From positions 1-63,263 of the forward strand of contig JAQMWT010000131.1 of assembly GCA_029834535.1 (NCBI GenBank): a stretch of DNA of 63,263 nucleotides, in the 5' to 3' direction. Position 1 is the stretch's first letter. Every line of letters starts with the position of its first letter. The stretch is from Chrysophaeum taylorii (taxonomy: Eukaryota > Sar > Pelagophyceae > Pelagomonadales > Pelagomonadaceae). The notes under the pieces were generated by a model, which had not been told where the DNA came from, did no database searches, and was given only the letters and a program-made list of their open reading frames with translations. Positions 2,040 through 57,829 of this stretch are shown in pieces. The position numbers were made by a program, and so were the translations under genes.

Positions 2040-3813
2040 CGATGGTGATAGCGTTAATTTACGCAAGTCATAGACAAGCTGACACAAATGTTTATAAATT
2101 ATATGATATGTTCCAGCTGGAATAGCATTAGCGATTATATCACAGCATAGGTCCGGGGACAAAGACAAAAGAAAATTGATTTGGTGCGCTGTGAAGTTAT
2201 TGGCGCGTGCCAATTCGCGAGTTGAGTAGTGTCGAAGGCGATCGAGTCGTGGATCGTGCACGAGCATATTAGCAAATCCACGAATGGTATGAGTAGGAGT
2301 GTATATAGATTGAACTTTGGCACCCATCTTCCTAACGCTCGATGTAATAAAGCCCAGATATCTGCTTTGGGACAGATGCATGTCACTTAAAGCAAACATT
2401 TTATCGATAAACTCGAGATGATTTTCCTGAGGGTAGAAGACAAAAGAATCGTGAAATACAGGAGAAGTATGGGTGACCAGTGCTTGTACTAAACGACGCG
2501 TGTCTTGATTTTCATTATTATTATGGTATGCTTGGCAAAGCCAAAGAAAACCAGTAACAGGTTCGAGAGAAGCAGTCTTATCAATTCCGGCATCATGTGT
2601 TAGGAGGTATAGGTTTCGCCAAAAGCATTTATATGTGCCTGGTATTTAGAAGAGGAGTTAGAAACTGTTATGTCTCCGCCTGTATGTCTTCCACCGGTGA
2701 TGTAAATGATGGAGGAAGTAGAGGATTTATTTAAAATAACCTGTGAGATGGTTGGTTAGATTCGATAGTTGTAATACGAAAGGACACAGGTAATGTGATA
2801 GATTTAGGGAATAAGCGTCCCATAATATTATAGAGGAGCACGAAAGCTTTGAGTTCAATAGGGGATCTCATGCAAGCAAGTGGTTTTCTTGAATTAGTCA
2901 AGAATCCCAGGCGAAAGTTAGAAATGCCCTCCATTTCATCTTGACTGGGATGTTCGACTGTTTTATTAGAGTGCAGACGAAGGAACAGCATAGTTAAGGT
3001 TTCAAGCTCAGTCACAGTTAAGCGCACGGATCCTGTACGACTAAAAATTTTGTAGGTTTTAGGTGTGGACACGAATGGTATGTCGGGAAAGACCTGCGTC
3101 CAAGGTTCGTCGACTATTATCTTGCGACTGATGGAATTAGCGTGGTCTGCAATGTCCAGAAAGGAAGTGACTCGTTTGTTAGGCCATGAAAGCAGATCAA
3201 GAGGGCCGGTGTTATATTTGCGTGCAACGAGGATCCATCTTTCTCTGGCTTGATAATCTCCACACAGATAGCATGGAAATCGGTCACATATATCCACCGT
3301 ATAGTGCATCGTTGAGAAGATGAGATTAGCAACTCGTATATGGTCTTCATACGATGCGGAGTGTGGTGGTGTCATTTCCATGAAAAGAACAAGCGGCTTT
3401 AAAAGCTCAAGTACACTTAGAGCACTTGGAAACAAGGAACCATCCATATCACGCTCGAAGGTGGAAATGGATCTCCCATTGATTATGTTGCGATTTGTGC
3501 ATGGTGATGTCAATTCCACTATATCGGTGTAATATCGTGCACGTTCAACGTCCGATGCTCGATGGAGATATGTCAGAAACTTAGGTAGGGATGGGAAAAC
3601 TTCGATGGAATTACCAAAACGTCTTCGTAGCATGTGCGTGATATTGTCGTCGCTCTCAACAAGAACTTTAACGTTGATGTTGATTTGCAAGTCATTAGAA
3701 ACGCAAGCCAAGAATGCCGGAGTGGACATCCCAGAGCAAAGTAGAGTTACAGTAGGTGTTCGTGGACTAGGAGACGAAGTTACTGTGTGAAGCAAACGTG
3801 CGGTAACCTTGCG
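2040..3813 (-). pseudogene. C5 cytosine DNA methyltransferase domain of copia A
   Basis: The domain sits between the protease and integrase of a copia polyprotein. The 354-codon segment 3795-2731 shows motif I (TLLCSGMSTPAF, with FxGxG altered to CSGMS), a motif II acidic patch (VESDD), motif IV with the catalytic Cys (ELTSPCTN, residues 94-101), a motif VI equivalent (FMEM), and a canonical motif VIII (QARERWILVAR, residues 182-192). Frame breaks around 2400-2740 disrupt the target-recognition region. Motif IX (YSTRELARAN) and motif X (IIANAIPAG) then appear at 2240-2100. The order and spacing fit C5 methyltransferases, which transfer methyl from AdoMet to cytosine C5. The copy is broken, though the motif I-VIII half is open. 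Confidence 0.82.
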
Positions 3814-3816
3814 TCA
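3814..3816 (-). other. In-frame UGA between Gag-PR and methyltransferase (copia A)
   Basis: The Gag-PR frame ends PPPV-UGA-CGC, and the methyltransferase segment continues in exactly the same frame with only this one stop between them. Copia B has a UGA at the aligned place (17513-17515), also followed by C. A conserved UGA-C in a retroelement suggests stop-codon readthrough; this is inference. Confidence 0.5.
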
Positions 3817-6554
3817 TACGGGAGGTGGGAAATGCTTGCGTATGTAAGGCAGCTGCGAATGCATCGACTCCAGGATGGTTTTAAGCCATGGGACGTAAAT
3901 TGCGCGTTCCACGAGGGTGGAATATAGTTTAAGCATTTCGCGTTGTTCATTAAAAGCACATAGTCTGAACTGTAGTGAGCGAAGTTCCATTTTGCGCGCT
4001 TTTGCTTGTTGTAGCGAATAAATTGGTAGTGTGGGCAACAGGTCACTGAGTCTAAACAAAGTAATCTTGACATTATCATCAATTTTACTCTGGATGTATG
4101 ATTGTCCTTTAAATTCAACTCCATAAAGATGTATACCAAGTTTATCTTCTCCCCATTGAGTCATACTGATGATGTGCAGATCGGGATCGTTATGGTCGTT
4201 TTGCTTGGGTAGGAAAAGCGCAACGTCTAGCTTTACATATCCCATATTTGGATGCTTTGGGAGAGCGGGAATGACAGTCCTTATAATCATAGCATGTGTG
4301 ATACTCTGCGTATCCGTAGCAGTCTGGATATCAGGTGATAAGGACTCGGGTAGCTTTACGATGTGGATAGGATCAGCATAACGTTTAAAGTTAATTACAT
4401 GTTGAGAAGCACATGTGTCAGCATATCCTGGCGTAGTCATTAGCGGCAAATTGCACTCGTTGTACAGTTTAAGCATTGTTGCATAGCAGGCATGTGTTGA
4501 GCTTGGACCAAACACGTACTGTGTCACGAAACTTTGCGTTGGTTCGGAAGGCACAACGACGAGTGTAAAACCAGTGTTTAATTTTGGTAGCAACACAGGG
4601 GGATCTGTGCCATCTTCATTATCTTCGTTGGGTAGATTATTGGGGAGCTCAGAGTGCGAGGAAGTTTCCCGAGCTTGACGACGAACGATAGCACTCTGAG
4701 CTTTAGCATTTATGTGCTGCAATAGCGGCTGAGGGATGTTATCGATTTCATCATCTTTAATGGACAGAAAAGTGTGGAACATTTTCTCTGTATCAGCAGT
4801 CCCCCTCTGCTCCGCATCACTGGGGGACGCTTCAGGAGCAGATGTTTCAGTTTGATACTTTTCTTCTGAAACATGAGATTCCTTATCGGCTTCTAAGAGG
4901 TTCACAATGGTATTGGACATAGTATCAACTCGAGATAAGTAGAGATGAACTTGGGTGGCTTCGTCAGGATCTAAGGACTGTGTCGAAGCTTGAGAAGCGG
5001 TTGTCCAGAGGGTACTCGGTAAGCTTTTTATTTCACCCTGTACCATTTTAGAGTCGGTAGAGGGGTTGGGATTCGCTTCCTGTAATTTACCAAACAGGTG
5101 GCGAAGACGATCAACTTGATAAGTAGCCCGGTCCATAAGAGACATATTAGAGCGTGCATTACGGTTAGAGGAGGGTGAGTAGACAGGACGATCGAAGCTG
5201 GTACCTTTGACGTTATAATTTGAAGGTGGACGATAGTACGACGTGTCACGAGGTAAAATTGTCGATGCTTTATCTTTTGCATTACGAAGCTTACGAGCGT
5301 TGAAGCCAGACTGTCCAGCTACAGTAGCCAACAACGAGTAAGCATTGTTTAGAGAGTCGTGGGATTGATGAATAGTATCCATCAATAATACCTTAGGTGG
5401 CTTGGTAGCGGTAGTACCAGGGATGTAAGGGATCCAGGAAGCGGGTTTATCCAAGCGTCGGTTAGAGGAAAACTTTGTTTCATTGTATATCTTTAACAAG
5501 AACTCCAATAACGGACGAACGTCGTTAGGATCAACTAGCTTTAACAATTCAGGATCGTGAGTCGAGTTGTTCCCAGAGCGTGTCTCATAGAGTTTACACC
5601 ATTCCAATAAAGATTGAGAATAGCGCTCGTGATCCGAGGGATTAGCATATAGACGGTAGATCTCCTCGTGAGCTTTAAGAGTGATTATGGAGTTATTAAA
5701 TTGGATTGATGCTTCATCATTATTTAATTGCTTTGCCTGAGATTGGAAAGCAAGGAGTTGTTCGACAAATACATGGGCATACCAATTAACATTTAAAGAC
5801 ATTCGATTAAACTGAGATTTAAGCTCAGTGACATCTGTACAAGACACTGTCTCATAGTAATGGTAAGCTAAAAGCATTACTGCACGTAGTTTATTAGGAT
5901 GTGCAGTAAGTGCATATATCTTCTTTAATTGAGGCCACATAGCGAGTGCTGGTTTGTCTTGTGATTCCAGATTAAAAAATGTGTACAAGAAACCAGCATA
6001 AGTTTCGCAGTGTTTGATCCAGTCGGTATTAGAGAGACCTGTAAAGGATATGTTAGTTAGAGATGAATCATACACAATTGATTTAGGGAATCGGGTATCT
6101 AATAGATTGAGAACACGTTTAACATCCTCATTTAATTCGGGACGAACGAGATTGTATGACTCTTGGTAATAAAGTCGTTCGAGATTATTACGGACATCAA
6201 CTGTTAGTTGATGTGATGAGTTGACGCGCCAAGTTTTAAGATGATCAGGCAGGGCATCTTCACCAGGTAAGTTTAAATCGCCTACTTGTTCAGCTTTCCA
6301 TTGAGCGAAGATGATATCAGCATCTTGTTCAGAAGTTGGTTATACTCCGGAGCATTCCGGGTGTAAGCTTCATATGAATCGAAGCAGAATAACGCGTCCA
6401 CGTATGGACTTGTCATATGCCTGCGAAGCACCTCAATTTGCAAGCTCACCTTGGTTGAGTTGTCTTGGAAACGCAATCCTGCGTTAATTTTATCAACGAG
6501 GATTTGTTCTTGTTTGTAGATATCCGTAGTGGATATTGGTTTTTGTTTTGACAT
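3817..6554 (-). pseudogene. gag: Copia A Gag-protease
   Basis: The segment starts at ATG 6554, has one frame break near 6290-6340, then is open from about 6340 to 3817. The N-terminal part (VSLQIEVLRRH, FDSYEAYTR) and the capsid-like part (TYAGFLYTFFNLES, NVNWYAHVFVEQLLAF) align with copia B and E Gag. The C-terminal part is retropepsin-like, with active site ADTCAS (Gly of DTGA replaced by Cys), followed by IIRTVIPAL and VKLDVALFLP strands. No CCHC knuckle is seen. The shared Cys substitution in copia B argues it is a lineage feature and not a local mutation. Confidence 0.78.
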
Positions 6555-7440: not shown

Positions 7441-7937
7441 GTAATATATTCGCGACAAAAGACTAGAGGATTGACTCAGCAGTCTTATGTGTAGTACATC
7501 GAGAATCAAGAAATGAGAAAATGGATCAAAAAAATGATCAGATATGTCTCGGGACGAGCACTGGGCAGAGGTCCGAACAAATCCACACAAAGGACGGCGC
7601 AATCACCATCATACACCGGTTGCTGAAGCAGACCTGCTCTCTTTGGTTCAGGCGTACGAGCTTTCTTGCACACTATACAACCAGCAATATAAGCACCCAC
7701 CTCATTAGACAAGTGGGGCCACCAAAAACGTTCAAGTCTCGACTGCACTGTACTTTGACGACCCATGTGACCACCATTGAGAGGTGTGTCATGGTACAAT
7801 CGGATGATGCGCGTCCGTGAAGTTCGGGGTGCGACTATCATCGGGTGCAAGTCAGGTGCGGCACGGTAGAGAACTCCTTTCACCACTTGATAGCGATAAT
7901 TGGCTCCGTGCCGACGAAGAGAATGGCCCTGAGCCAT
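7441..7937 (-). pseudogene. pol: Gypsy A integrase, N-terminal part
   Basis: The HHCC zinc domain is clear: YHDTPLNGGH, then FWWP, then CIVCKKA. The start of the catalytic core follows (LCVDLFGPLP carries the first Asp). A frame break near 7500 is followed by FSHFLILDVLH, and recognisable similarity stops near 7440. Gypsy B loses its integrase at nearly the same point. The second Asp and the Glu are missing, so it cannot be active. Confidence 0.8.
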
Positions 7938-7989
7938 GCGATAACGAATGTCCTCGCAAGTAGCATCAGGGATCTGCTCTTTGGCTATC

Positions 7990-9560
7990 TCTTACAAAGT
8001 CAAATTATCCGGAATCTTGTCGATGTACTCTTGGTAATCATCGGCATCACGGAAAATACTAGGCTGGGTCTGCAGACGTTGCTTCTGACGTTGTTTCGCA
8101 GCATGAGACGTGACCAATTGCATCGGATCATCGAGGTCCTCTTCCTCTTCCTTCACAGGCAACTCAGTCGTAACAAACGACAGAATGACATGGCACCCAG
8201 GTAAAGGTACTCCTTCATCATCGACAGGGCGAGGAGGTTCTTGGCACACTAGATACGCGTGGTTCAAGGGTTCACCAAACTCGTCCGTCTCGATGACATG
8301 ATCTATAGGATTGCGAGAGCGACAGTCAGGGATACTCATTCCCGGCGACTTCCCTGGTTTGTAGCCCAATTCAGGATCAGAGTTGGCGAGCCGCATCGGC
8401 CATCGAGCCAACTGCCCAGACGAGTGCTTCGCCTTTCGTAAAAACGTCAAGTTGCGATGATCCGTTTCAGGGATCGTCTTGTGACCTTCGATATAAGAGC
8501 GGAAATGCTCAAGAGAAAGAATAACTGCCAGTAGCTCTAGCCGGCGAGGCTCATAGTTCCGCATCTCTTTCGGCACAGCTCGGCTCCAATACTCAACTAC
8601 TCGTTCCTCTCGTGTCACCTTGCCGGTTTCGTCCTTGACTTCCACGAGCTGAAAAAGATACGCGCCCAGACCATCCTTGGAAGCATCCGAGCGGATCTGA
8701 AAGGAAGATCGCAGTCAGGATGATAAACTCCGCGAGAGTCCACCAAAGCTTCGTTGATCGTGTCCCGTGCCTTTTGGCACTCAGGCGTCCACTCAAACTT
8801 AACGCCTTCAAGACACAATCGCCTAAGCGGCTCCACAATCTTCGAATAATTCTTCACATATCGGCGGCAATAGTTGCTCATGCCAATGAAAGATCGAATC
8901 TGGGTCTTCGGGGACGTATTAGGCAACGTACCGGGAATCGGCATCTGCGGTAACGCTGCTAACGTCTTGGGATTCGGCTTCAAGCCTTCCGGAGTCGAAA
9001 TGTGTCCCAAAAACTCGATTTCATCCTTGAGGAGGTGGAACTTCGAAGTTCGTCCACTATATCCTCGCTGCGCTAAATGGCACAGCACTTCAATCAAAAC
9101 TTGTAAATCTCGGTGGAGTTCATCCGATCCCATCATAATATCGTCGACGAACGCGACCAAGTCTTTATACATCCATGTGGCCAAATCGCTAGCCTTCTGC
9201 TTACAAACGAGAGCTCCTGCTGTTTTTACTCCTAGAGGCAAGCGCATGAAACTATGGGCTCCAAGTGGACTAACCATCGTAACGGCGTCCTGAGCAGCGG
9301 CGTCCAAACGTAGGTTATGATAACCCCATCGAATATCAATGCACGTCCGCCAACGGCGCATGGCAAGAAATGCCAAAGCATCATCTTGACGAATATTCGG
9401 CCAACTGTCATTGATCAGCTGATCATTGAGCTGACGCAAGTCAACTGCAGCACGAAAATCATTCGACGTCCCGGCCTCTGCTCCCTTCTTAGGCAGCATC
9501 AGTACAGGGAATCCCCACGGAGAGTTCGCCGGTCGGATGACTCCATCGCGACACCACTCA
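7990..9560 (-). pseudogene. pol: Gypsy A reverse transcriptase and RNase H
   Basis: RT motifs run in order: FRAAVDLRQLN, IDIRWGYHNL, SFMRLPLGV, AFVDDIMMG (catalytic VDD) and EFLGH. The connection PKTQIRSFIGMSNYCRRYV follows. RNase H is in another frame (8645-7992), with EPRRLELLAVI and the Asp motif TDHRNLTFL. An in-frame stop near 9566 (CAG to TAG by comparison with gypsy B) and a frameshift near 8700 break the gene. Confidence 0.87.
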
Positions 9561-9565
9561 GTGAT

Positions 9566-10430
9566 CTACTTTCTGAGACACTCGAGCTTTGCTGGCGTCA
9601 ACCTATAAGGCGTCATCTTGATCGGTCGTGGGTTTGCGTCTTTAAATCGTAGAGAAACCGGTGGCGAGTCCACGGGTCTCATAATCGGATCAAAAAAAGC
9701 CCACGCGTATTGCACGCAGTGGCGCAACATCATCGTAGCATCATCATCCAGATGCGGGTTGTCGGGAATTCCCAGTTCTCGAAAAACCTTTTCGACTTCT
9801 TCCTTCGTCGGAATCACGACTTTCATCGCCTCATTGTCCTTGACGTGCTCAGGGGTCTGCGGTAATGGTACACCGTCCGCATCGCGCGGCGCATCCTTCC
9901 ATGGCACGTCGAACTTTTCTTCGTATTTGAACCTCACCTCAGGGTGGCTCTTATTGATCTTTTCACCTTTGACGCGCACATTCGGCTCGCTCCTTACTTT
10001 CGGCTCCTGTTCAGGCTCAGGATCCGGCGGAACGTCCACTTGTGATTGTCGGGGGGGGGCAGCAGAAAAAGCATGAGCCGTCCCCGACGCATCTGCTGGA
10101 AGCGGAAGCATAGGGACTTCTGGTGGTTCCCATTTAGTGGGATCCTGGAGATCATCTTTTGACACCCACTTAACGACACGAGTACGCGTATTTAACAGCG
10201 GAATCTGTACGTGACGAAGGGTGGTGTCGGTAATTCGCAAATACTGCTCGAAGGATCGATCTGTTGGGCTCAACGCGGTCGGCATGACGTCGCCACTTTG
10301 GCGGAAACCTCTGGTCACGGAGTTGTGCAGATCGACTGCTAAAATCGCAAGAGTGTCTGGAGGGACGACACACGCCAAATGTTTGAACGAATCTGTCTTA
10401 GACAAGCTAGCCCAATCATGGTCCAGCGGC
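9566..10430 (-). pseudogene. pol: Gypsy A methyltransferase C-terminus and acidic linker to RT
   Basis: This open segment begins inside methyltransferase motif IX/X (DHDWASLS, then VVPPDTLAILA, the GNAVPP equivalent). It runs through a roughly 200-residue linker rich in Pro, Glu and Lys (PPDPEPEQEP; EVRFKYEEKFDVPW) into the RT fingers (TPYRLTPAKL). A run of 9 C (9 G on the plus strand) at about 10051-10059 lies in the linker. At the same place gypsy B has 11 C, which shifts the frame. No known domain is recognised in the linker. Confidence 0.75.
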
Positions 10431-11440
10431 ATCGTGCGACAACTCGGCCGTCATCTCGAGAGTCAAAGGCTGAGTGTCCGAGCGATGCGGTCCCAAACGA
10501 AGAGGAACTCGCGTAACGGTGTAAGCCGTATCTGTTGCTTCTCGGGACGAGCCGAGATTATTCAGCTGGAGCAGGTGGCGTTCATGAGCGTAACCTAAAG
10601 CTGCAGAAAATTTTAGTTGCATGTTCACACATGTCTTCGGAGCCTCTTGTAAGTGCAGTGGGTGACTGGAAACCAACAATCGCACGCGAGAGCTCATCAG
10701 AGTGGGCGTGATATCATGAAAATTGACGACGTACACGTAAGGGTGTAAACGCGCTATATACGAAATAATGGACGCCTCCTGTTCAATCAGCCACATCATG
10801 AAGCCAGCCATTTTGCTCAGCTTCATCGTCCAATTAGTGGCCGTAACTCCCTTGCCAGCATCTCTGGATGTCAAATTGCTGAGTGCTGAATGAACGCAGG
10901 GTGGGGACGCTATACACATCGACGATGACCATTCCGCTTCAGGCAAATAAGCCTTGATCAGTCGGAGGGTCGAGTCATATCGTCCGCAGAGCGTGTGCTG
11001 AACCACAGGTATCTTCGGAAAATTCTTCTGATGAACTTTGTTGGCAGCTGTTGAAGAGCCATGAGCAAGGACGACTCGAAACGACGTCCCGCACAACGCA
11101 TTCGCTCGTTGCAGTCCTAAAGTACTTCCTCCGGCGCCGCTAAAGAGCATCACAACCTTGCGATACGTGATCGGCACTCAGTGGGCCTTTCAAACCTTCG
11201 GCGAATCTCGCCTTCTGTAACTTCGAAGCATTTCTTTTCCTCCTCGTCAGTTTGTCGGTCGAAATCGTCGTTACCGAGCGCTTCTTGACGAGAATTCTTC
11301 TTATTATCTGCAGAAGGAGACGCCTTCTGCACTGAGCTCAAAAGCATCGGTTCGGGAGCCGCATCGCCTTGAGTTAGATGGCTTGCGACCGAAACAGTGG
11401 ATGATAGGTTAGCCTTGTTAGATTCGGCTTCACCATCGAC
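10431..11440 (-). pseudogene. C5 cytosine DNA methyltransferase domain of gypsy A
   Basis: Motif I is VVMLFSGAGGSTLGLQRAN (canonical FxGxG). Motif IV is CIASPPCVHSAL, with the catalytic Cys near 10900. The motif VI equivalent is WLIEQE, motif VIII is MSSRVRLLVSSHP, and motifs IX and X follow across a one-base insertion near 10430. The order I-IV-VI-VIII-IX-X and the spacing match C5 methyltransferases. A linker (LSSVQKAS, then EGEIRRRFE) precedes it. It lies between the SINE-marked deletion and RT. This half is open from about 11180, with only the motif IX frameshift and no stop before it. Confidence 0.87.
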
Positions 11441-16182: not shown

Positions 16183-16795
16183 CCTCTCGGTCTAACATGA
16201 AATTATTAGATCGAACAAACCACACCTTAAACACCCTGCGAGAACAGTGTAGTGAACTTACGAAGCATGTGACAGATAACGATACCACGGCTCAGCTACA
16301 ACATAATATCAACAGGTTGTTTGAGACTCTATTACAATCAGCTGACATTCTGTCAACGACATCTACGGAGGACAACACTAGTGTACTTCGTCTAAACGAA
16401 CAGCTCATGTTTGCAGAAGACATCATTTATGATGTAGACGTTCATCTATCCTCGACCGAAAAGTCGTTAAACTACGTGGAGCCACAACACCATACTGTTG
16501 TTACTGCTCCCACCCCAAAGGCAACTCCTCCTACTACAAACACACAGGGTAATCCTTCCAATACTGCGCCTAACCTCTTTGCCGCTTCCGCCATCTCGGC
16601 TTTACCACCAGCATTATTGTCCTCGCTATCTTCACAGGTCCAATCAGCCCTCAACACACCATCACAAGCCGAAACCAAAAGGGATGCCTATCATACTTCG
16701 CTATCGCCATTTGATAAAAAGCACGGCATGGCTGATGAGGCTGACGAACCATCACCACTGTTCAACCGATTATTATTCCAACGAATCTGTTATTG
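16183..16795 (+). pseudogene. gag: Copia B Gag, C-terminal part with processing-site motif
   Basis: A helical segment (LDRTNHTLNTLREQCSELTK) runs into VHLSSTEKSLNY at 16454-16474, the first of the five repeated TExSLNY sites, then a Pro/Ala/Thr-rich linker. The frame is lost at about 16795, where the protease frame takes over (one-base shift). No zinc knuckle is seen. Confidence 0.7.
16454..16474 (+). other. TExSLNY repeat site 1
   Basis: GACCGAAAAGTCGTTAAACT plus A; encodes TEKSLNY between Gag and the PR-methyltransferase segment. Confidence 0.75.
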
Positions 16796-17422
16796 CTCAA
16801 GAACTTCTTCACTGCCAGCCTCTCCACTACTTGCCCACATTTGGAAAACGCCTTCCTCACCAACTACATGAAGGTAAACAGTGTCCCTCCACATTGCTCA
16901 TTTCTATATTTTGACTCTTGTGCTACCATCTCATTGATGTCCACTTGCGATTTTGCAATACCCAATCATATAATTCCATTGGATTCCAAATACGCGCTGA
17001 TTGTTATTCAGACGGCTACAGGACAACAACGGGCATCACACATGATGTTAACACGTAACATTGTTGTTCCCCTACCAGATCATCCACAAGTTGGCTCTGT
17101 TAAGATCGACTTCGCTTTATATCTTCCGCCAGTGCATGACCGACATCTCGCTATTCTGAGCATGCTCGAGTGGAACCAGACGAACCTGACCACTGTGGTC
17201 AATGATCGAGCTGAGCCAAAGCTCAGCGCTGTCACGAGCCGCATAGACAAAGATGTACGTATACCCATACACTATGTAGCAGCTAATTTACCTGCTCTCC
17301 CTTGTCTCACTTACAACATCGCGCGCGACAAGCAGCTCGAACTTCGCTCTCTCGCATTTCCCCTCAAGCGATACCATGAAAACAGGGATCTACTGGCATA
17401 CTACAACTACCTACTCCAATGA
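16793..17422 (+). pseudogene. pol: Copia B aspartic protease
   Basis: The active-site loop reads YFDSCATISL, i.e. D-S-C-A where retropepsins have D-(S/T)-G-A; copia A has D-T-C-A at the aligned place. Downstream strands (NIVVPLPDHP; VKIDFALYLP) and the terminal part (KQLELRSLAFPLKRY) match copia A. In retroelements this enzyme cuts the Gag-Pol polyprotein. A stop at 17420-17422 ends the segment but the frame continues to the UGA at 17513. Confidence 0.75.
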
Positions 17423-17515: not shown

Positions 17516-17530
17516 CTACTTTCACGCCCA

Positions 17531-18670
17531 GTGTTTCTCTCACAAGAGTCCAATCTCCGCAAACCCTCTGTCATGTTACTTTGTTCTGGTTTGTCAACTC
17601 CGGCGTTCCTGTCTCAAGCCACTAATGACTTAGGCTTAAATATCAATGAAAAAGTTGTTGTTGAGTCTGATGATACGCCTGTTCGTATGTTACGCCACCG
17701 TTTTCCTACTGTATTATTATTTGAATCTCTCCCCGCCTTTATTAGCCAGCTTACACACTAACTCACCCACTCCTGTGTCCTATTACCTAACCGTTTTCGA
17801 AACTAACCAACCGTCACACAGGTTACTACTTACAACCTCACCAACATCACACAACTCCTACTTCTTAACTGTTGGCCACCATTCCGACGGCAACCTCACC
17901 ATAGAGAACGCCACCACCAAACATCAAACTCCCATCAACGCCTTTGGAAGCACGTACACGTTCACTGCTTCCGACATCCCCCGCGACCGGGACAGGTCCA
18001 TATATTTGGAGCCGTTTATGGGTTACTTGTGGATAGTCCAAGCACTTCCCCAAGTTGGCTCCGCTGCCACCTATGGCACCGCCATACAAAAACTCTTGTC
18101 CAGATGCTCTCTTGTGATGCCTGGCTGCCTTACCTACAAGGCCACCGACAACTCTTTCGATTACAAGGATTCTCATTTTGCTCTGGAAGATCACCACTTA
18201 TCTCATAGTCGCTATATAGGGTATCTTCGTGGAAGTGACCGCAAACTCGGCTCTAAAATCCACTCAATGCCTGCTCCATTGCCAACCGTCCGAGGGTATG
18301 CCAATATTATTTTACTTGACCCTCGCAACGGAAAATTACGCTACCCCACTCGACCGGAGTTGATTCGTGCTAACAACCACACCAAACAACAGGAATCCTT
18401 CCTATTGTCTCTACGCCATGACCTTTGCTGTGACATGCTCAGCAATGCTCTGCCTGCCGGTACGTACAGCACTCTGTACAAGCACCTTTCGCTCCTCGTT
18501 GCCGATATTAAATCCCTTATGTTGGACCCTACCTTCCAACATACTGCTGCCGTGACTAAGAAATCCTATGTATCCAATTTCATGACCATTGATCAAGCTT
18601 CCACCACGTGCAGCACAGATACCTTGTCTTTGGCACAAGCTTTTATGATGTCTATTTCCAGCAACTGCTT
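17531..18670 (+). pseudogene. C5 methyltransferase remnant of copia B (core deleted)
   Basis: Motif I (VMLLCSGLSTPAFL) and the following acidic VESDD are present up to about 17757. The sequence then jumps to a position aligned with the end of the copia A 354-residue segment (FETNQPSHRL). About 245 residues carrying motifs IV to VIII, including the catalytic Cys, are therefore missing. The target-recognition part (NAFGSTYTF; SHSRYIGYL; LPTVRGYANI), motif IX (YPTRPELIRAN) and motif X (MLSNALPAG) are open in 17646-18670. The segment ends at the TEMSLNY site. It cannot methylate. Confidence 0.82.
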
Positions 18671-18691
18671 GACCGAAATGTCGTTAAACTA
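18671..18691 (+). other. TExSLNY repeat site 2
   Basis: GACCGAAATGTCGTTAAACT plus A; encodes TEMSLNY between methyltransferase and integrase. Confidence 0.78.
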
Positions 18692-20817
18692 TATATCTTC
18701 GTCCTACGAAGATACTCTCGTTACTCGTGATGATGAGGATGCACCTCCAAGTGACCCTGCTGCGCACCAGGATGACGATACACCGCCTTCCCCTGCCTTA
18801 GACACCGAACTCAAGTTCGATGTTCGGCGCAAACGGCACATTCCCGCTCATCCCATTCCTCGTAAGTCCCTCGCACACGGATCCACCGAATATCTCAATG
18901 CCAAAGAACGTGCCAATCGCTTTCACCGGGTGCATCACTGCCCCGACAACGTCGCTGCCAAGGCCCCCAACGTACTTGCTCACCCTGGATTCTCTGCTTC
19001 TGACATACCATATCGCGACTTATGCACCGACTGCATCGCACACAACAAGCGCCACCCGCACAGGCATTTCAATGCGACTAAGCCTTCTTTTGAGCAAACT
19101 CACAAAGCCGGCGAAGTCTGGGCGTGCGACGGCGGCTATGTGACCATCCCATCCGAATGGGAGACTTCACACATATCATCGTCTTCAAGGAACTCATTTC
19201 GAAATTTCTCTTGGTGTACTTTACACGCACCACCAACACCACGGAGTTAATTCAATCTCTGGATTTTGTGTATGACTTCTGTCGTACACAACCCAACGTG
19301 CACATGCGCACCCTCTACTCCGATGCATTCAAGCCCTACTTTAGCCAGCACATTACCTCCCCGTACCGCGTCGATAAGGGCATTCAACTCATCGCCTTCC
19401 CGCCGTACATGCACCACTTTAACTTTGAAGTTGAGTCTGCCATCGGTTTCATCGCCTCCGCCTCCTCAACTCGCCTTCGTTCTCTCCTTAATGCTCACTA
19501 TCGTGGCGCCAAGATCGTGGAACCAGCTATCATGTTCCCATGGGCGGTGATACACACCGTTCAAAGCTACAACCTTCTCCCGAACGCCACGCTCGAGCGC
19601 ATTCATCATGCTATTCTGAGTCCGCAACACCTACTCTACAACCAACTCAGCACTCCCCAACACGATATGCTCAAGATTTTTGGCGCTGAATGTTACCTCC
19701 TATTGGAGCCCCATGAACACCACAAGTGGGAACCGTGCCGCCGCAAATATCTGTATCTCTGTTGCGCCAGCGCGCAAAACCCGCTCGTCTCCCCACGCGT
19801 CGACCATCTCGCAGACGTCGTCCTCAACCCTCAAAACGGACAAATTCGTGTTTCGTCCAAGCTGCAATTCCTCTACATGCTTCAGCATCCTACTCCTCCC
19901 CCTCACGCTGATCCCGCGCCTTTCTCGCTCACACCCCACGCCGCTATCCAAGACCATCTCATTCAGACGGGGACAAGGACACCTCATCCTCAGAGGGGAC
20001 ACTCTCCACCTCCTTCAGCTCCTTCTTCGTCCCCTGCTCCTGCCTCTTCTCCCTCTTCTGACACTCTCGCCGACGATTCTGGCTCTATGTCACCGCCGCC
20101 CTTGCTTCCTTCTTACAAAGACCTTTTTGCACAAGATGACCTCATTCTTGTCCCAGGTTCCAAACAGCCCAACACCCGCAAGGCCACTTCTATGAAAACT
20201 ATCCAAGCCCGGCTGCAAGCGTCTACTATTGGTGCTTACAAAGCCGCTGGTGGCAAACTCGCCGATTTCCGCTGGGATCTTCGCCACCACTTTCTTACGT
20301 TCAAGTCTCCCGCCCTCTCCGCCCTTCATCTCCGTGGTGGTATCCTCTGGTCTGCTATCTGCTCAGAGGGGGAACATGCGTTGTTAGCTCGTCTTCTTCT
20401 CCCGTTGCGCACTGACTTACTTGCCCGCTACCCGCACGTCGATGGTTACTTCGCCCACGCCAAGTGCGCATCCAGCATCCCAGCTGCAACCTTTTTAACT
20501 GCTGATGGTTCACCTGCGTGCCCTATTCCTCAGCCCCTTTTATCTGCGTTCACTGAACACGCTGCTGCCTTCGGCACTTCTTCCTTACAATATGCACTTA
20601 CGTACCTGGCGCCGACCAGCTTTATTGATCACAACTCATCCGAGTTTGGCGCTACTTCTGCATCTCTGGCTGACTTGGAGGAATACCTTCTGGTCTCTAC
20701 AGAGTTTATCACCCAGGTCTTACGTACCGACCCTACTATCCATATCCAACTGGAATCTGCCCCTACTACTCCTACTGACGCTGTTTCCGCTTATCCCGAA
20801 GTTGCGCACACTGCCTC
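18692..20817 (+). pseudogene. pol: Copia B integrase plus C-terminal linker
   Basis: An acidic stretch is followed by the HHCC zinc domain (FHRVHH ... CTDC). The first catalytic Asp is in VWACDGGYV near 19120. A one-base loss near 19160 shifts the frame, after which the second Asp (YSDAFKPY) and Glu (NFEVESAIG) are in the long frame 19124-22708. A conserved tail (RKYLYLCCAS; HLADVVLNP), a Pro/Ser-rich stretch and a roughly 250-residue linker of unknown function (GGKLADFRWDLRHHF) follow, ending at the TATSLNY site. The enzyme would insert the cDNA into the genome; only the frameshift is clearly disabling. Confidence 0.85.
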
Positions 20818-20838
20818 GACCGCAACGTCGCTAAACTA
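20818..20838 (+). other. TExSLNY repeat site 3
   Basis: GACCGCAACGTCGCTAAACT plus A; encodes TATSLNY between integrase and reverse transcriptase. Confidence 0.78.
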
Positions 20839-28877: not shown

Positions 28878-29036
28878 CATATTTATAAAAGACGAGACGG
28901 GCCGACGATCGCCACGACGACCGAGGGAGGCCTCGTCACCATCGGTTGTCTGGACTTTGGCACGCTGACGTTCATGGTTGGACATATATATAAAAGACGA
29001 GACGGGCCGAAGTTCGCCACGACGATTGGTGTTGAT
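28827..29036 (+). repeat. 105-bp tandem duplication in gypsy B
   Basis: CTCGTCACCATCGGTTGTCT occurs at 28827 and again at 28932, and similarity continues through both units. The unit length is a multiple of three. The first unit has a TGA. Gypsy C has a single unit. Confidence 0.85.
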
Positions 29037-40380: not shown

Positions 40381-41779
40381 GCCGACCCTCTGAGCAATAT
40401 CTACGAATTACCGACACCACCCTTCGTCACGTACAGGTTCCGCTGCTGAATACGCGCACCCATGTCGTTAAGTGGGTGTCCAATGATGATCTCCAGGATC
40501 GCACCAAATGGAAACCGCCAGAAGCACCTTTGCTTCCGATTCCAACAGATGCGCCCGGGCGGCTCATGCTTCTTCTGCTGGCCCCCCCCGACAAGCAAAA
40601 TTGGACGTTCCGCCGGATCCTGAACCTGATCGGGAGCCAATAGTGAGGAGCGAACCGAGTGTGCGCGTCAAAGGTGAAAAGATCAACAAGAGCCATCCCG
40701 AAGTGAGGTTCAAATACGAAGAAAAGTTCAATGTGCCGTGGAAGGATGCGCCGCGCGATGCAGATGGTGCGCCGCTGCCGCAGACCCCGGAGCACGTCAA
40801 GGACAACGAAGCGATGAAAGTCGAAACTCCGACGAAAGAAGAAGTCGAGAAGGTTGTTCGAGAACCGGGGATTCTCGACAATCCGCATCTGGATGAGGAT
40901 GCGAAGATGATGTGAAGCCACTGCGTGCAATACGCGTGGGTTTGACCCGATTATGAGAACTGTGGACTCGCCACCGGTTTCTCTACGATTTAAGGACGCA
41001 AACCCACGACCGATTAAGATGACGCTTTACAGGTTGACGCCAGCGAAGCTCGATTGTCACAGAAAGCAGATCACCGAGTGGTGCCGCGATGGAGTCATCC
41101 GAACGGCGAACTCTCCGTGGGGATTTCCGGTGCCGATGCTGCCCAAGAAGGGAGCTGAGGTCGGGACGTCGAACGCTTTTCGTGCTGCAGTAGACTTACG
41201 TCAGCTCAATGATCAGCTGGTCAATGATAGTTGGCCGAATATTCGCCAAGATGACGCGTTAGCCTGTCTTGCCATGCGCCGTTGGCGGACGTGCATTGAT
41301 GTTCGATGGGGATACCACAAGCTGCGTCTGGACGCCGCCGCTCAGGATGCCGTCACGATGGTTAGCCCACTCGGAACCCATAGTTTATTGCGCTTGCCTC
41401 TGGGAGTGAAAACCGCAGGAGCTCTTTTCTGTAAGCAGATGGCCAGCGATTTGTCAGAATGGAAGTATAAGGACTTGGTCGCGTTTGTCGACGATATTAT
41501 GATGGGATTGGTCGACCTCCACCGTCACTTACAAGTCTCGATTGAAGTACTGTGCCACTTAGCACAACGAGGATACACTGGACGAACAGCGAAGTTTCAC
41601 CTCCTCAAAGATGAAATCGAGTTTCTGGGACACATTTCGACACCGGAAGGCTTGAAGCCGCATCCTAAGACGTTATAAGCGTTGCAGCAGATGCCTATCC
41701 CCGAAACGTTACCGAACACGTCTCCGAAGACCTAGATTCGATCCTTCATCGGCATGAGCAACTATTGCCGCCGATATGT
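40381..41779 (+). pseudogene. pol: Gypsy C linker and truncated reverse transcriptase
   Basis: The linker continues in a shifted frame (40508-40915: EVRFKYEEKFNVPW) with an 8-C run near 40582-40589. A stop follows KMM at 40913-40915. RT is open at 40953-41678 with FRAAVDLRQLN, IDVRWGYHKLRL, AFVDDIMMG and EFLGHISTPEG, then a stop in place of Glu. Gypsy similarity ends at 41779. Confidence 0.85.
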
Positions 41780-51402: not shown

Positions 51403-51468
51403 AGTGAGATGACCAGCGGAGACATTGTAGTGGACATCGATACCAAGAAAGGATCTGATGTTATCATA

Positions 51469-53886
51469 CTACGCACCTTTGCCATATTCCTTCTCCAGAG
51501 CAGTGCGAAGAGATGTAATTTTGGCAGTGTTGGTACCAGTGATCAATAGGTCATCGACCGAAACGGATAGTAGAACCCATTTGTTGATAGATCGATCCCA
51601 ATTGATATAGAGGCAAGTGTCGACTTGTGAGCGTTCGAACTCATGTTGTCGAAGAAACGAGTCGAGTTTGATGTTCCACAACAAAGCTGACTGTTTGAGG
51701 CCATAGAGAGCCTTGACGAGTCGGAGAGCGAGCTTCGACTCTGGATGGTTCTTCTGTATCTGCTGGATAAGATTTTGCGAGACACGTATTCCTCGAGGGA
51801 AGTCGATCCATACCGGCCGATCGAGTGCCGATTGGATAAATGCCTGCGGAATGTCCGCGTGCGCGACCGGGAGTTTGTGCTTCACAGCGATGGCGAGCAA
51901 TAACCGGTTGGTGGCGAGCATTGCGCTTGGGGAGGATGTGGCATAAAAGTCAATGCCTACACGTGCCAAGAAACCTCGGGCGACTAGACGAGCTTTGTAG
52001 CGGTCTGGGGTGCCATCAGCAAAATACTCGATCTTCAGCACGAGTTTCGTCGAGATAGACGAACGGTCTGGCGGTAAAGGTTCAAGCTTAAAGACACCGT
52101 TGGAGCACAGGCCTTCAATTTCTTTGCGAATCGAAGCGATATGCTTTAACTTGTCTTCTTCGCTGAGTCCTTTGAGTTCGACAATCTTCTCAGGCTCATA
52201 GACAATATCTTCAGCAGTCACGAGTTGTAACACGACGTGATCGATGTGCTGCAAGTCATAGTCCATGACTTCTTGGAGAATATCTTGATTCGGATCACTT
52301 TGACTTAGGAAGAGGTGTCCGAGTTCGCCAGAATCATGCATGAAGGCATGCCTGTGACGAGAAGCTAAGTGGTAGTGCTGGTGCGCTGAGATGTCCCACA
52401 AAAGGGAGGAGCTCATACAGCAGAATTCTTGGTTCCATTGACACGCATAGTACTCTGCCGGTGACAGTTCGTAATGGCACACATATTTCTCGAGAACAAT
52501 GTTGTCGTTGTCCAGGTGGTCGACCAATACAGATGAGTGGTACGGCTTCCGTGGGAAGTGGACACACAAGAGTTCTGCGTCGGTTTCTCTCTGCAGATCC
52601 AGTGCAGTGCCGCCCATGATACCATATTCTTGTGTGGTATTTACTAGGAGACATCCTTTCGGGACATCATTTGGCGGCTTAGCATCCCTTCTAGTATTGA
52701 GATCAGATGCGATGCTGACAGCATGGCCCTGGTGCAGAGCGCTGACACTGATGAGGAACATCAATGTGCTGGACATGTTGGCTGTGGCGCGAGCCGTGGA
52801 TTGCTCCTGCCGGTATTTCCAGTTGCGACCATATTCTGAAGCGATAATGCGTCTGGTGAAGAGTTTTCCATCGTCAGCACGTTTCAAGATATAGAGTTGA
52901 TCCTTAGGGATGCGAAATCCACGTTCGTCCTTAAGATCAGCCTTGAGCTTATCGCTCTGGTTGCGATGCACGAGAACTGGGGTAAAACATGAATCGTCGA
53001 GAACAACCTCTAGGCGATCTTTTCGTTTGGGCATCGGAATGCTACCATCCGGCGGGGGTGGCCGGTTGAGGAACGATAAATCCTGTTCAGGTGTCTCGTC
53101 GCTGACGGGACTTGGATCGGCAGCGGGAGTTGGATCCGGTTCTTTGTGCTCGTCGTCGTCTTCAGGTTTATCATCATGGTCGTCATCTTGATTCTCGCCC
53201 TCATCTGTTGATTCCTGTCTAGCTTCCGGCATTTGCTGTTCGCTTATAGCTGGGAGCGGGTCCTCTTGTCGTGCCTCTGTTGGGATCTGTGCGAGTGCTT
53301 TGATCAGCTCGATTTCCTTGTTGCGGTTGACTGGCATGTCTGCGTCAACGTGAAAGTCGTTAGATGTGACGATTTTTCCATATCGCCCTTCATGTACAAG
53401 CAGGATGGAGCTGTGAACATCACGGATAAATCGGTCCGTATCGGGGAGGTTCGGGAGATAGTTGTTACTATGAAAGTAAGAGGCGGAGACGCTGGAGGGT
53501 TCCAGCTTGTGACTTTGAGGGTAGACAAAGGTGACAGGTTCACCAAAGGGAAGGAGCTTTAAGAGCGGTGCCATGGATGACATGATGCGCCGGGGGACGG
53601 TGCATGCCATGTTTGTGCGCGAGGGCAGTCCATGAGAGCGCTGGTTGTCGGCTTGTATCTTGTGCAGTAGAGCAAGTGGGTGATAATACTCGGCGGCAAT
53701 AGACTTTCCTTCGATGCGTACACTGCGAAGGTTGAGGAGGCGAACTACAGTGCCTCGGGTGTTTTCCTTGATGATGTATTCCGCAAAATTCCGCTGGTGG
53801 AGGTGGCGACCAAGGATTTGAAGCTGGATGCCAAGTTGCACCTTTGGAGCGCTTCGGAGCTTCGGAGCGGAAGGTCGAGAATGCAT
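51469..53886 (-). pseudogene. pol: Copia C integrase C-terminus, linker and reverse transcriptase
   Basis: The open frame has 805 codons. It starts in the integrase (Glu in YIIKENTRGT), then an integrase tail (LLPFGEPVTFVYP), an acidic stretch (DDDHDDKPEDDDEHKEP) and a roughly 300-residue linker of unknown function (VVLDDSCFTPVLVHRNQ). RT follows: RYKARLVARGF, HADIPQAFIQS, VKALYGLKQSALLWN and catalytic SVSVDDLLITG (SVDD, not YVDD). A frameshift near 51470 separates it from the RT end. Confidence 0.87.
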
Positions 53887-54150
53887 CAGACGAGATGATT
53901 TTCACATTGACATCGAATTCGACCTTAATCACATTGACCACATAGAGGATGCCGGCCAGAACGTCCTGTGCGTCTAGTTTCCGCAGGAAATAGACCCACT
54001 TGTGTGCTGAGATAATACACACGAAATGCATGATGTAACGAAATCCCCCATAGCATTTGCTGATGCTCGGGTACGAGACATCCATGTGGAGGTGTTGGCC
54101 AGGAGCATGGGCCAGATAACAAACGATGCTTCTCTCCAACTTTCCGACGA
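53790..54150 (-). pseudogene. pol: Copia C integrase core (5'-truncated)
   Basis: The first catalytic Asp is in GQHLHMDVSYP and the second in ISSDAFSTFRS; a frameshift near 53870 leads to the Glu-containing segment. The zinc domain is missing, because the copia C sequence stops about 20 residues before the first Asp. Copia D, in the opposite orientation, ends just after such a zinc domain. Confidence 0.78.
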
Positions 54151-55357
54151 CAAGATTCTCGAGGAAATCCACCAACTGCTTCGCTTTAAGTACCTTCCAA
54201 GTTTGCTTGACTCTCGCGCCCCAACACACATCAAGGGCTTCGCTTGGTCTTGCCAACTGTCAGCGCACTCCCAACGACTCGCTGTTACTCGACGAAGACA
54301 AGGAAGCCATCAACCACCTTCCCAAGCTCATCGCTCGCATAACAGTCATCTCCACGTTTGAGCGCAACTTTTGTGCTCACCTCAAGCCTCACCCAACTCT
54401 CAACTTCAAGCCGTTGCGCTTCGTCACAGACTTTGGTCTTCTACCGACTAAAGACAAAGACAATCCACGTTTTCGCTCCCGCCGTCATGGTCTCAACTTC
54501 ACCGAAGACGATGATGACACCTCTCCCTCTGAAGATGAAATCCCTCCGGACCCCACTGAAGACACCGACCCGGTTGCTGTTTTTCTCACTGAGGCCGACC
54601 TCGATCGAGACGACGACAACGATCTCATCCAACATCTACACGCCTATCGAAAGAAACAGGCTACACGACACCCCAAGAAGCCCCCCCAAAAAAAGCTTCA
54701 CAATCCTCGTTCTCCGTCGTACTATGACGTCAATGACAGTCCAAAGCCCAAATCCACCCCTGTCACCCCAACGAAAAACAAGCAAAATCCCCGTGCTACT
54801 CCCGTCACCCCGACAAACGCGAGCACCCGCATCTTCGCAAGGTCCACTTTCCAACTGAACCTCGTCCACCTAAACCATCTACTCCTGACCAGCGATTCAA
54901 GGCCCCCCTTCGTGAAGTCCGTCGCAAGCTCCAAACCATTCGGAATCTTAGCCAAGCCGGTCGCCCACATACGCCCAGATCCGAGCGCACGAGCAAGCTA
55001 ATCAACCTCATCACCACCATCTCCGACGAGTTACTTCTCTCCGAAGCCGATATGAGCAAGCTAATCAACCTCGTCACCACCATCTCCGACGAGATACTTC
55101 TCTCCGAAGCCGATAACGATGCCGCCGAATTTCTTCAGGTGCTATCGTCCGATACTCCGGAAGATCCACCTGATGAGGGCGAAACTGAGGAAAAAGATGA
55201 CCAAGGCCATCTCGGTTTCTATGATGACCACGGACACCTAAGCCTCTACGACGACACCATCCCCGAAGTCCACGATGAGGATGATTCCGCCGAAGATCAC
55301 GCACAACGTCACAGTGACTACATGCGTGCTCTCTATCAAAGTCGGCTTTTTCGCTGA
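54150..55357 (+). pseudogene. gag: Copia D Gag-like region
   Basis: Several frames make up one protein-like region. A helical part (KEAINHLPKLIARITVIS) and an acidic part (FTEDDDDTSPSEDEIPPDPTE) run in 54126-55001, followed by a basic part (HPKKPPQKKLHNPRSPSYY). A shift near 54840 leads to a charged helix region with a 63-bp tandem duplication (SKLINL-TTISDE twice) and an acidic end at 55357. It is Gag-like by position and charge only. Confidence 0.5.
54990..55115 (+). repeat. 63-bp in-frame tandem duplication
   Basis: GAGCAAGCTAATCAACCTC occurs at 54990 and 55053, and the units stay alike for 63 bp (21 codons) with few changes. Confidence 0.9.
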
Positions 55358-55880
55358 CGGTTGCCGACGACGCCTGTGCCGCCAACCACATCTTATTCAA
55401 CCAGGCACCAAGCCTCACGATGACGAATTTCCCAACATCATCAACAATCTCTCCCTGAGTCGCAGATTTTCTTTGTGCAACATACATTCCAGGCAAGACC
55501 TCAAAGAAGACTAACTCGCTGCACGGATGCAATGGACCCGGCACTGAAACTTCATTGATACACGGTGACGCATCTTTTTGCTTCACCCGCACAATTCGAC
55601 ATTTTGTTCCCGAGACCATACGCCGGATTCCCGAACACACCATACGTACGGGAAGAGGAACCTTGACCAGCCATATCATCGGTGTTAAACCGTTGTACTT
55701 GCCGGCCGCAGGTCTCTCCTCGAAAGACGCCAAAGAATCCACCGGTTACGCTTTATATCTCGTATTTCTGGTCGTCCCGCAATTCCGCAAAGGTCTGCAG
55801 GTTATAGCGACGTCTCAGCTCAAAGCTCTGAACGTCCAAGCAACCGACCCGCCATTGCAGAACCATACCTCTACGAGCTT
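55358..55880 (+). pseudogene. pol: Copia D protease-like region (degenerate)
   Basis: In 55520-55884 one frame reads GTETSLIHGDASFCF then TRTIRHFV and HTIRTGRGTLTSHIIG. The LIHGDAS loop sits where a retropepsin LIDTGAS loop would be, but without the catalytic Asp in place. TETSL recalls the copia B processing motif. The assignment rests on position between Gag and methyltransferase. Confidence 0.35.
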
Positions 55881-57829
55881 ATGAACACGTCAACGGCTGA
55901 TCCACACGATTACAAGACGCTTATAGGAAGAACAGCCATAGTTCTCGCCAATCGCCAAACAAATGGCCTGTTGTCCCTGCCGTCTCATCCAAAGGACACA
56001 TTCCGCGCTGTGGTTAGTTTCCACACTGGAACACGAATGTCACTCAAGGATGAAATCGCAAACATCACACAGCATGTTACAAAGACACGCTCGCAATCTC
56101 ACGTGTTAGATTTCGCGAGGCTTCAGCATCACTCCATCTTTTTATCTGACTTCATTCGCCTCCCGCGTACCGTCGGCCAATACGCGTTTACTACCACAGC
56201 GGATCTATCTGTGCAAGCACAACCCCCTCCGCTAAAAACAGCTATTATCGCAGGTGGACTTCATCAAGAAGGTTTTACCTCTGTTCGCAAACGCTTCGAC
56301 AACGGTATTACTGTCGTGGTCACCTGCGAACTTCACCCTATTATGCCCGCTCGCGCACAACAACTCTTCCCGCATGCTCAGCATTACGCGGACCTCAGGA
56401 AGCTCAATGCCGCTTTACAAACCGGTAAAATCAGACTACCTCATTTTGACTTAGCGGTTTTCAAACTGCCATGTCAACATTTGAGTGTAATGAAAGAATA
56501 TGACGGCTACGCCACTCCAGTGACAGCCGACCTTTTTGTCACAGAACAAACCCGCTTTGTTCGCTGCACGCTCCCGACCTACGCCACTGTCGACAACGTC
56601 CCTCCAACCCCCCGCAATCACCACGAGTACACCCGACTCGCCAAATGCTATCAGCGCTTAGGCTACTTCCGACACTCCGGTGTCTACAATGCCTCCGCCT
56701 TTGGTGACGTCATCAGCAAGACCCGCTATCTCGCTGTCTATGCCCGGCACCCGCTCACCGAGTACAACCTCGAGAAAAGCGCTTCTCCATGGTTAACATC
56801 TCCTCCGAGCATGGTCCCCCTTCTGGACCCCAGCAACACTATCCCCGACGATCTCAGGATCGCCAACCCCGCCCTTCGTGGCACCGTGCCCCGCTCCACC
56901 TTGACCTGCTACCAACACAAGGCCACTTTTCTTACGCACCCGCCAACGCCTCTGAACTCTCGATCTCCGAGAATGCCTGCATCTGCCAAATGCTCGCACG
57001 CTTCACCAAGCCCATCACGGATCTCGGTCTAGACGCCGACGGCACCCCCTGCGCCACCATGGCATCCATTTCCCACCTTCTGGTTTTCTCATTCCTGCAC
57101 AACCACTTGTCGCTACACCCCACTCTCGACGCTTGGAACACCATCCGCAGTTTTCATCATGCCTCAGAGTCTCAATCTGCTTACCATTTGGATGGAGCCA
57201 TCACCGGCACCGCCGCTACTGCCGTCGCATGTGGCTACTTCCCGCGCGCCTCCCTCACCCTACATTCCAGGTCCCCTCAGATATTGGACTGTTCCCATCG
57301 ACCCGCAGTCTTCTCCCCAACGCACGCCTTTTCCCAGGATGTCCCCAAGGGCACCGCCTTTCTGGTCGTCGCCTACACCACCTCCTTGGCCGCCGCTCAC
57401 AGCTGCTCGCGCCCGCCCACTTGGGTCCACTACATGAATCGTTCGCATCCTGGCTTTGCCGCGATCGACTCACGAGGGCGAATTGCGCTCGATGACCCCA
57501 AGGGACTCATTATGTCCAAAGCACGTCCCACTTACGCGGACTATGTCGGCCACATCGGAGACACGCTTCAGGAATGCACCAAGTGTTACTCGGTCACTGG
57601 CTCGTACCCAACCAACACGAGCTACTCCAACGCCCTGCTGCTGATCTCTCCAGACCACATCCGCTATGCGACCCTCAACGAAATCGCAAAGTTTGGACAC
57701 CACTCGGACCCGGAACTGCTCCGTCTGTTCCAACAGCACCCGCCGTACTTCGCGTTTAAGGCAATGGCCAACGCCGTCACGCACCATATGCTGCAGGCAA
57801 AGTACAGCGCTGTTCTCGCACTCCACTAA
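55881..57829 (+). pseudogene. C5 cytosine DNA methyltransferase domain of copia D
   Basis: Open from 55881 to about 56940, then a frameshift, then open to a TAA at 57827-57829. Motif I is AIIAGGLHQEGFTSV (residues 121-135), then VVTCELHP (motif II acidic end). Motif IV is FDLAVFKLPCQHLS (Cys codon 56472-56474). Motif VI is TVDNVPP (ENV-like) and motif VIII ASAFGDVISKTRYLAVYARHP. A roughly 250-residue target-recognition region follows, then motif IX IRYATLNEIAKF and motif X AMANAVTHHML (57763-57795). About 110 residues precede motif I, without recognised function. All diagnostic motifs survive. Confidence 0.84.

Follow-up and report, generated by a model that had tools for sequence, protein, structure and literature searches.

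Do long terminal repeat (LTR) retrotransposons of two superfamilies carry a cytosine C5-methyltransferase (MTase) as a regular part of Pol, and what would such an enzyme do there? The question is raised by contig C131, a stretch of 63,263 nt (the window) from a 70.8-Mb assembly of 697 contigs, in which LTR elements are nested. Calling of the window elements relied on frame reading, Pfam and local alignment. Six of them contain C5-MTase sequence: the Ty1/copia elements copia-A (reaching 6.3 kb, minus strand), copia-A' (13.1-25.2 kb, plus) and copia-B (54.1-58.35 kb, plus), and the Ty3/gypsy elements gypsy 1 (7.5-11.2 kb, minus), gypsy 2 (approximately 28-34 kb, plus) and gypsy 3 (approximately 37-42 kb, plus). 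That two superfamilies with MTases meet in one window had been read from the sequence before, and this part of the original prediction was confirmed by frames, Pfam, alignment and a hidden Markov model (HMM) of environmental proteins. By our findings, the MTase has long belonged to these elements and is maintained by selection; it is no rare passenger.

Placement and recurrence in the genome

Superfamilies were assigned by domain type and order. In the Ty1/copia elements, the integrase (IN) precedes an RVT_2-type reverse transcriptase (RT), the rve matches of the host copies being below the Pfam cut-off. In the Ty3/gypsy elements, an RVT_1-type RT is followed by RNase H and then by IN, an order also seen by eye in loci L039-L041. 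The MTase lies before the next pol domain in all six window elements. Its position was originally described as always just after the protease (PR). This applies to five of the six elements, but not to gypsy 1, where a search of 9900-13200 revealed no upstream protease, and an environmental protein with the MTase in first place (P0023, see below) departs from it as well.

Queried with the MTase proteins, the assembly gave at least 113 copia-A, at least 124 copia-B and at least 136 gypsy scored matches; first-look candidates numbered 1150, 663 and 990, respectively, and the scored counts are lower bounds. Among the matches listed, an RT lies downstream on the same strand for at least 40 of 113 copia-A, at least 73 of 115 copia-B and at least 53 of 136 gypsy MTases. 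The median MTase-RT gaps, again among the matches listed, are tight and amount to 3109, 2967 and 486 bases, respectively, and a listed RT solely at the wrong side or strand occurs for 4 copia-A, 6 copia-B and 2 gypsy MTases. Because this comparison covers listed RT matches only, MTases without a listed RT carry little weight. RT matches listed were 145, 136 and 121 for copia-A, copia-B and gypsy, of which 126, 116 and 121 were used. Left out were 19 of 145 copia-A RT rows (copia-A'-like, 65-66% identical), 20 of 136 copia-B RT rows (fragments and distant RTs) and 9 of 124 copia-B MTase rows (fragments). Since the MTase-RT pattern recurs genome-wide, the notion of a peculiarity confined to this locus fails.

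RT position also predicted MTase placement: the MTase was present in five of five copia-A'-type copies (one with Cys replaced by Arg, one with an internal stop) and in the single stretch of a further type, copia-C (L062, C560:50000-56500). A single frame of 1952 aa comprises PR-MTase-IN-RT in the copia-B locus L042, and at two gypsy places on contig C5 MTase and RT lie within one listed open frame of 3067 aa; in the gypsy locus L039, a frame change separates the two. Chimeras, an assembly artefact or stray host genes beside the elements might be suspected, as the MTase or its surroundings are disrupted in five of the six window copies. The long single frames, the fixed MTase-RT spacing, the environmental HMM and environmental proteins of the same order contradict chance or chimerism, and we consider such an origin scarcely credible.

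Identity and descent of the methyltransferases

In copia-B, PF00145 is matched above cut-off at many genome sites (1.1e-7 in the 1952-aa pol of L042), and the motifs AGG (motif I), LPCQHLS, ENVPP and SK-RYLAV are present. A second gypsy lineage (L041, L063) matches at 1.4e-8 and 2.8e-8, while genome copies related to the first lineage reach 9e-5, just above the cut-off. Invariant columns of four gypsy rows, of which one has 41% identity to the first, include G-AGGSTLG, ASPPC, EQ, R-R and VPP. Environmental copia relatives match PF00145 down to 1.6e-17, and one of them, P0025, matches the bacterial DNA C5-MTases HaeIII (3.6e-9) and HhaI (8.4e-5).

Direct hhalign comparisons of copia-A with copia-B, or of either with gypsy, were not significant. 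Homology of copia-A and copia-B therefore rests on copia-C, which aligns motif to motif with both (hhalign E 2.3e-8 and 1.1e-11, respectively), and on an environmental-only HMM. The latter was built from eight environmental copia MTases, seven of them listed with PF00145, and matches copia-A (window:2734-3813, 9.6e-16), copia-B (window:55689-57029, 3.3e-29) and copia-C (3e-23). It weakly matches the host genes for DNMT5 (4.1e-5) and DNMT2 (0.016), and none of the 835 reversed ORFs that served as decoys scored at E<=1; gypsy rows were not among its matches. The copia-C MTase is itself divergent, with Glu-Cys in place of Pro-Cys.

The catalytic Cys of motif IV is found in 12 of 13 copia-A/A' rows (Arg in L057), captured with a pattern that admitted only Cys or Arg; for the 30 copia-B and 7 gypsy rows, the capture patterns themselves required Cys. 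In the environmental MTases, where no pattern was required, the Cys was seen by eye in 12 of 12. Pro-Cys is retained in five of the six window MTases. Motif VI reads ENV in 28 of 29 copia-B rows (ENA in L015), and the window copy has DNV. The motif VI Glu and one Arg of motif VIII (QxRxR) are widely retained. Searches of the PDB with single copia-A and copia-B sequences gave chance matches only, and the copia-A profile gave one unrelated match at 0.35; the copia-B profile found one C5-MTase (0.13), and the gypsy profile four weak ones (E 0.75-0.89).

With the RT end of copia-B as query, 1722 of 7984 scored proteins were found. Among the best 120 of these 1722, seven combine PF00145 with RVT_2, and an HMM finds the MTase in 12, eight of which, along with copies from this genome, had served to train it. 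The protease motif precedes the MTase in eight of the nine environmental copia proteins where it is visible, an exception being given by P0023 (MTase-PR-IN-RT); no such motif was found in the other 3 of the 12. An RT tree of 47 rows contains one branch (100/99) that splits 31 copia rows, comprising all MTase-bearing copia rows and the other copia RTs of the host, from 16 MTase-free rows. These 16 were chosen from listed proteins of plant, fungal, oomycete, insect and unnamed origin, and the root is as drawn only. Rows were labelled by family, and the label count of nine changes is due to 11 unlabelled rows among the labelled ones of the 31 (seven RT stretches of this genome and four proteins beginning near or in the integrase). 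No clear MTase loss was seen in the copia group, because these 11 rows are either RT stretches unread for an MTase or proteins that start near the integrase.

Inheritance of the MTase within copia is thus old, and the gene was probably captured once, long ago; the gypsy capture looks separate. One capture in each superfamily suffices, because the copia MTases are homologous via copia-C and their RTs share a single branch. Convergence, as originally proposed for the whole set, therefore appears to hold between copia and gypsy, while among the copia types it is ruled out by the copia-C alignments and the 100/99 branch. One may go further and take the copia elements of this genome and of the environment as one deep group defined by its captured MTase, with a gypsy lineage having captured another at the same place; we regard this extension as tentative, with the odds rather against it. 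Queries with gypsy A1 (7996 scored) and with a fragment of copia-B (7997 scored) gave no protein match at E<=0.001; since only candidates sharing most words were scored and the gypsy query has low-complexity flanks, absence is not implied. No relative was found in IMG/VR scans.

The host is a chlorophyll a/c alga, most likely a stramenopile, judging from its light-harvesting genes. Its genome contains 84 PF00504 matches, and its FCP has its nearest counterparts among the fucoxanthin-chlorophyll a/c proteins (2.4e-76 to 7vd6, which we take to be a diatom entry); a second light-harvesting complex protein, with 9vfj as its best match (2.1e-37), says little on affinity.

Retrotransposon-borne cytosine MTases were initially attributed to dinoflagellate copia and charophyte gypsy elements. 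The charophyte gypsy case (Klebsormidium nitens) is found in PMC5890265, but for dinoflagellates the same source assigns DNMTs to LINE and DIRS elements and states that Symbiodinium copia "lacks any DNMT domain". PMC12344493 writes "LTR Copia and DIRS", citing PMC5890265. Ty3/Gypsy and DIRS methylase elements, stramenopiles included, are described in PMC6338049. Among titles and abstract openings, which cover few subscription journals, no paper on a copia-encoded C5-MTase was found beyond the phrase in PMC12344493.

KnitGypsy-Dnmt3 of K. nitens (PMC5890265) resembles the present elements in having a C5-MTase in the gypsy Pol frame under purifying selection, but it is of Dnmt3 type, has DIRS-like repeats and belongs to a charophyte, whereas here the order is PR-MTase-RT and the host a chlorophyll a/c alga. 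SymbioLINE-Dnmt and SymbioDIRS-Dnmt3 of Symbiodinium are likewise a case of numerous retrotransposons with MTases, spread over several classes within the genome of one alga, and the DIRS domains are active in yeast; they are LINE and DIRS elements, however, and copia, said to lack DNMT there, carries the MTase here. DIRS elements with a Dam-like methylase (cited in PMC5890265 and PMC6338049) also encode a DNA methylase, but an unrelated one that acts on adenine instead of cytosine, in tyrosine-recombinase elements. The copia elements reported here, with their RVT_2 domain and a host with fucoxanthin-type FCP, belong neither with the dinoflagellate LINE/DIRS nor with the charophyte Dnmt3 gypsy cases. 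Retrotransposon-borne cytosine MTases are thereby extended to copia and to a chlorophyll a/c alga that belongs to neither of the published host groups.

Expression, selection and putative role

In copia-A, the gag-protease frame (3814..6339, minus strand; PR motif ADTCASQH at 4399-4422) ends in a TGA (3814..3816), directly followed in frame by the MTase (2734..3813, minus; LLCSG, TSPCTNRN, FMEMTPP, YQARERW). An in-frame TGA occupies this site in all 12 copia-A/A' copies with a readable junction; a 13th, L058, was left out, its junction being interrupted by an insertion. The next codon is CGC (6), CTA (3), CTG, ATG or ATA, and just two other in-frame stops were met nearby in 1420 codons scanned. 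The TGA is retained across types at 53% identity, and readthrough is therefore suggested. The contexts UGA CUA and UGA CGN resemble leaky ones. RNA viruses have leaky UGA stops, and in gammaretrovirus gag-pol readthrough a stop codon lies between gag-PR and pol. The stop described here likewise stands before pol, but parts the protease from the MTase in a copia element, its readthrough being putative; it may offer a compact case of regulated expression. In copia-B, gag terminates at TGATG (CTTTTTCGCTGATGG or close to it) and pol is open in a different frame, as seen in each of the 10 copies printed (L042 at about 1980-2030, L043, L020, L026, L033, L034, L030, L025, L032 and L012), which makes the TGATG a candidate stop-start overlap or frameshift signal for Pol.

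Selection was assessed by pairwise Nei-Gojobori dN/dS, with the caveats that the pairs are interdependent and that dN is inflated by broken copies. For the MTase core, the median is 0.19 in copia-B (31 loci; 341 pairs kept, 63 saturated, 2 too close), 0.14 in gypsy (14 pairs, 7 saturated) and 0.19 in copia-A (5 pairs, 4 saturated), and every MTase core pair measured is below 1. RT medians are 0.15 in copia-B (3 pairs) and 0.09 in gypsy (15 pairs); looser copia-B regions show 0.37 (after the MTase core) and 0.25 (protease-linker). The MTase core is thus under purifying selection, its upkeep roughly equal to that of RT and slightly weaker in gypsy.

Anatomy, conservation and selection are what the data show; beyond these, we infer the following course of events, to which we assign a probability of about one half: the Pol-encoded MTase is packaged together with RT and IN and methylates the cDNA of its own element. 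It would be made with Pol, in copia-A behind a TGA that is read through, in copia-B behind the gag/pol frame change, and as part of a single long gag-pol frame in some gypsy copies. The element protease would free it inside the particle, where it would travel with RT and IN and act on the double-stranded cDNA before or at integration. The new copy may thereby receive a de novo mark of benefit to the element, which a host maintenance enzyme such as DNMT5 could keep. If so, these elements may mark their own DNA copies by methylation. Support for an activity of this kind comes from the SymbioDIRS-Dnmt3 domains, which methylated CG de novo in yeast (PMC5890265).

A host enzyme for the last step is available. 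One host gene matches 7r76, named Rad8 there, at 8.5e-128 and is read as DNMT5, which we take 7r76 to be. DNMT5 is a maintenance methyltransferase. There is also a DNMT2 gene (7.7e-39). PF00145 has 121 matches genome-wide, 37 of them in the loci read, where two belong to host genes and 35 to retroelements. No DNMT1 or DNMT3 was seen among these 37 of 121 places, and intron-split host genes can escape; provisionally, DNMT5 and DNMT2 are the only C5-MTases of the host's own. The retroelements might then be the sole source of de novo cytosine methylation, writing a mark on cDNA that DNMT5 maintains, a conjecture we hold to be possible rather than probable. Who writes and who maintains transposon methylation becomes testable here, because long open frames occur in a genome of only 70.8 Mb with a DNMT5 gene.

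Several observations weigh against a DNA-methylating enzyme. PF00145 is not matched by copia-A and copia-C in the Pfam search; copia-C and 5 of 12 environmental MTases have lost the Pro of Pro-Cys; by eye, motif VI is EMT in copia-A and copia-C and EQ in six of seven gypsy rows; and the motif X GN is not retained in gypsy. An AlphaFold2 model of the MTase from window-only rows reached a mean pLDDT of 37. In the yeast test, the K. nitens gypsy and SymbioLINE domains gave no methylation, an outcome that the authors call inconclusive (PMC5890265). The elements have CpG observed/expected ratios of 0.89-1.32 (copia 0.89-1.10) and six host-gene loci of 1.26-1.46, so that copia lies below the host loci, yet not much under expectation. 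C>T rates at CpG and at other C are 0.059/0.053 in copia-B, 0.090/0.082 in copia-A, 0.032/0.033 in copia-A' and 0.063/0.046 in the copia-A/A' RT (eight loci); a finer copia-B scan showed no CpG excess of C>T.

The changes to motifs IV, VI and X seen in several lineages, together with the absence of PF00145 from copia-A and copia-C, would suit a domain that is no longer catalytic and that Pol retains for binding nucleic acid or SAM, such as a linker, cDNA chaperone or IN/RT cofactor. The catalytic Cys in all 12 environmental MTases, the wide retention of the motif VI Glu and motif VIII Arg and a core dN/dS near that of RT speak against this, and loss of catalysis is accordingly thought unlikely. 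Marginally better placed, though still unlikely, is an MTase that acts on RNA, methylating the genomic RNA or the tRNA primer in the particle and so aiding translation, packaging or priming. A strong CpG-decay signature was rejected on the CpG ratios and C>T counts, and for want of a clear footprint RNA, another sequence context or a transient mark come into consideration. DNMT2, a tRNA enzyme, shares the C5-MTase fold, and two of the four weak PDB matches of the gypsy profile are of DNMT2 type. On the other hand, P0025 matches bacterial DNA MTases, and activity on DNA has been published for some retrotransposon DNMTs (PMC5890265).

A role in trans, directed at competing elements, DNA viruses or the host genome for defence or reshaped silencing, would be in line with more than 100 scored copies per type in one genome and with the antiviral function proposed for transposon methylases in PMC6338049. 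We judge it improbable: the MTase is embedded beside IN and RT throughout a deep copia group, which argues for a particle-bound role. The suggestion that the genome imposes strong selection around transposon methylation is not borne out: the selection seen is that on the elements' own MTase codons, and the elements showed no clear CpG-decay signal.

Element structures in the window

The sole whole, single-frame MTase of the window is that of copia-A (360 aa), which has no Pfam match; stops or frameshifts interrupt the MTases of copia-B and of all three gypsy copies. IN core and SH3 of copia-A follow in two frames (133..2645, minus; SH3_retrovirus 1.6e-4 and rve 0.0034, both below cut-off), its RT lying outside the window. 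In copia-A', flanked by an LTR pair (13116-13415 and 24947-25246, 96% identity over 300 bases), the protease frame (16745..17422, plus; FDSCATIS at 16910-16933) and a TGA (17513-17515) are followed by an MTase remnant of about 65 residues in the motif I/II region around motif I (17516..17758, plus), the catalytic part and Cys being gone, and by integrase and RT frames (17640..22708, plus; RVT_2 9e-42).

The gypsy 1 MTase (10289..11189, minus) has a frameshift near its end and matches PF00145 below cut-off (6.5e-4, 19.7 bits); RT (9565-8615), RNase H and an integrase zinc finger occupy 7506..9565 (minus). In gypsy 2, the protease (28983..29312, plus; GVDGMADVSYI ... LFLLGARDI) precedes an MTase with one internal TAG (30165..31070, plus; FSGAGGSTLGL, ASPPC) and the RT and RNase H frames (31222..33585, plus; RT 31222-32388, RVT_1 2.2e-12, RT_RNaseH 2.6e-20). 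In gypsy 3, protease (38260..38589, plus), an MTase in two frames with a frameshift near 39.6 kb (39440..40352, plus) and RT (40911..41678, plus; RVT_1 4.7e-12) follow each other.

The copia-B copy comprises the protease (55498..55857, plus), an MTase with a frameshift near 56.9 kb (56202..57415, plus; IIAGGLHQEGF, KLPCQHLS, DNVPP, SKTRYLAV; PF00145 3.4e-5) and an integrase zinc finger (58136..58345, plus), and a copia-A' LTR copy adjoins from 58357. A second copia-B fragment with IN core and RT (51454..54259, minus) is cut before its own MTase. Within 51454-58350, the copia-B fragments thus stand head to head, both cut at a junction near 54.1-54.3 kb.

A short repeat family ending in GTTAGTTAGTTA is found at 15378-15463, 16087-16172 and 35954-36039, and related repeat pairs are 15062-15343/35643-35924 and 11442-11809/15805-16172, with pieces 80-97% identical. 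Similar-looking inserts interrupt loci L044 and L057. A weak PIF1-like helicase match at 26972-27754 (0.0036, below cut-off) is possibly a Helitron remnant.

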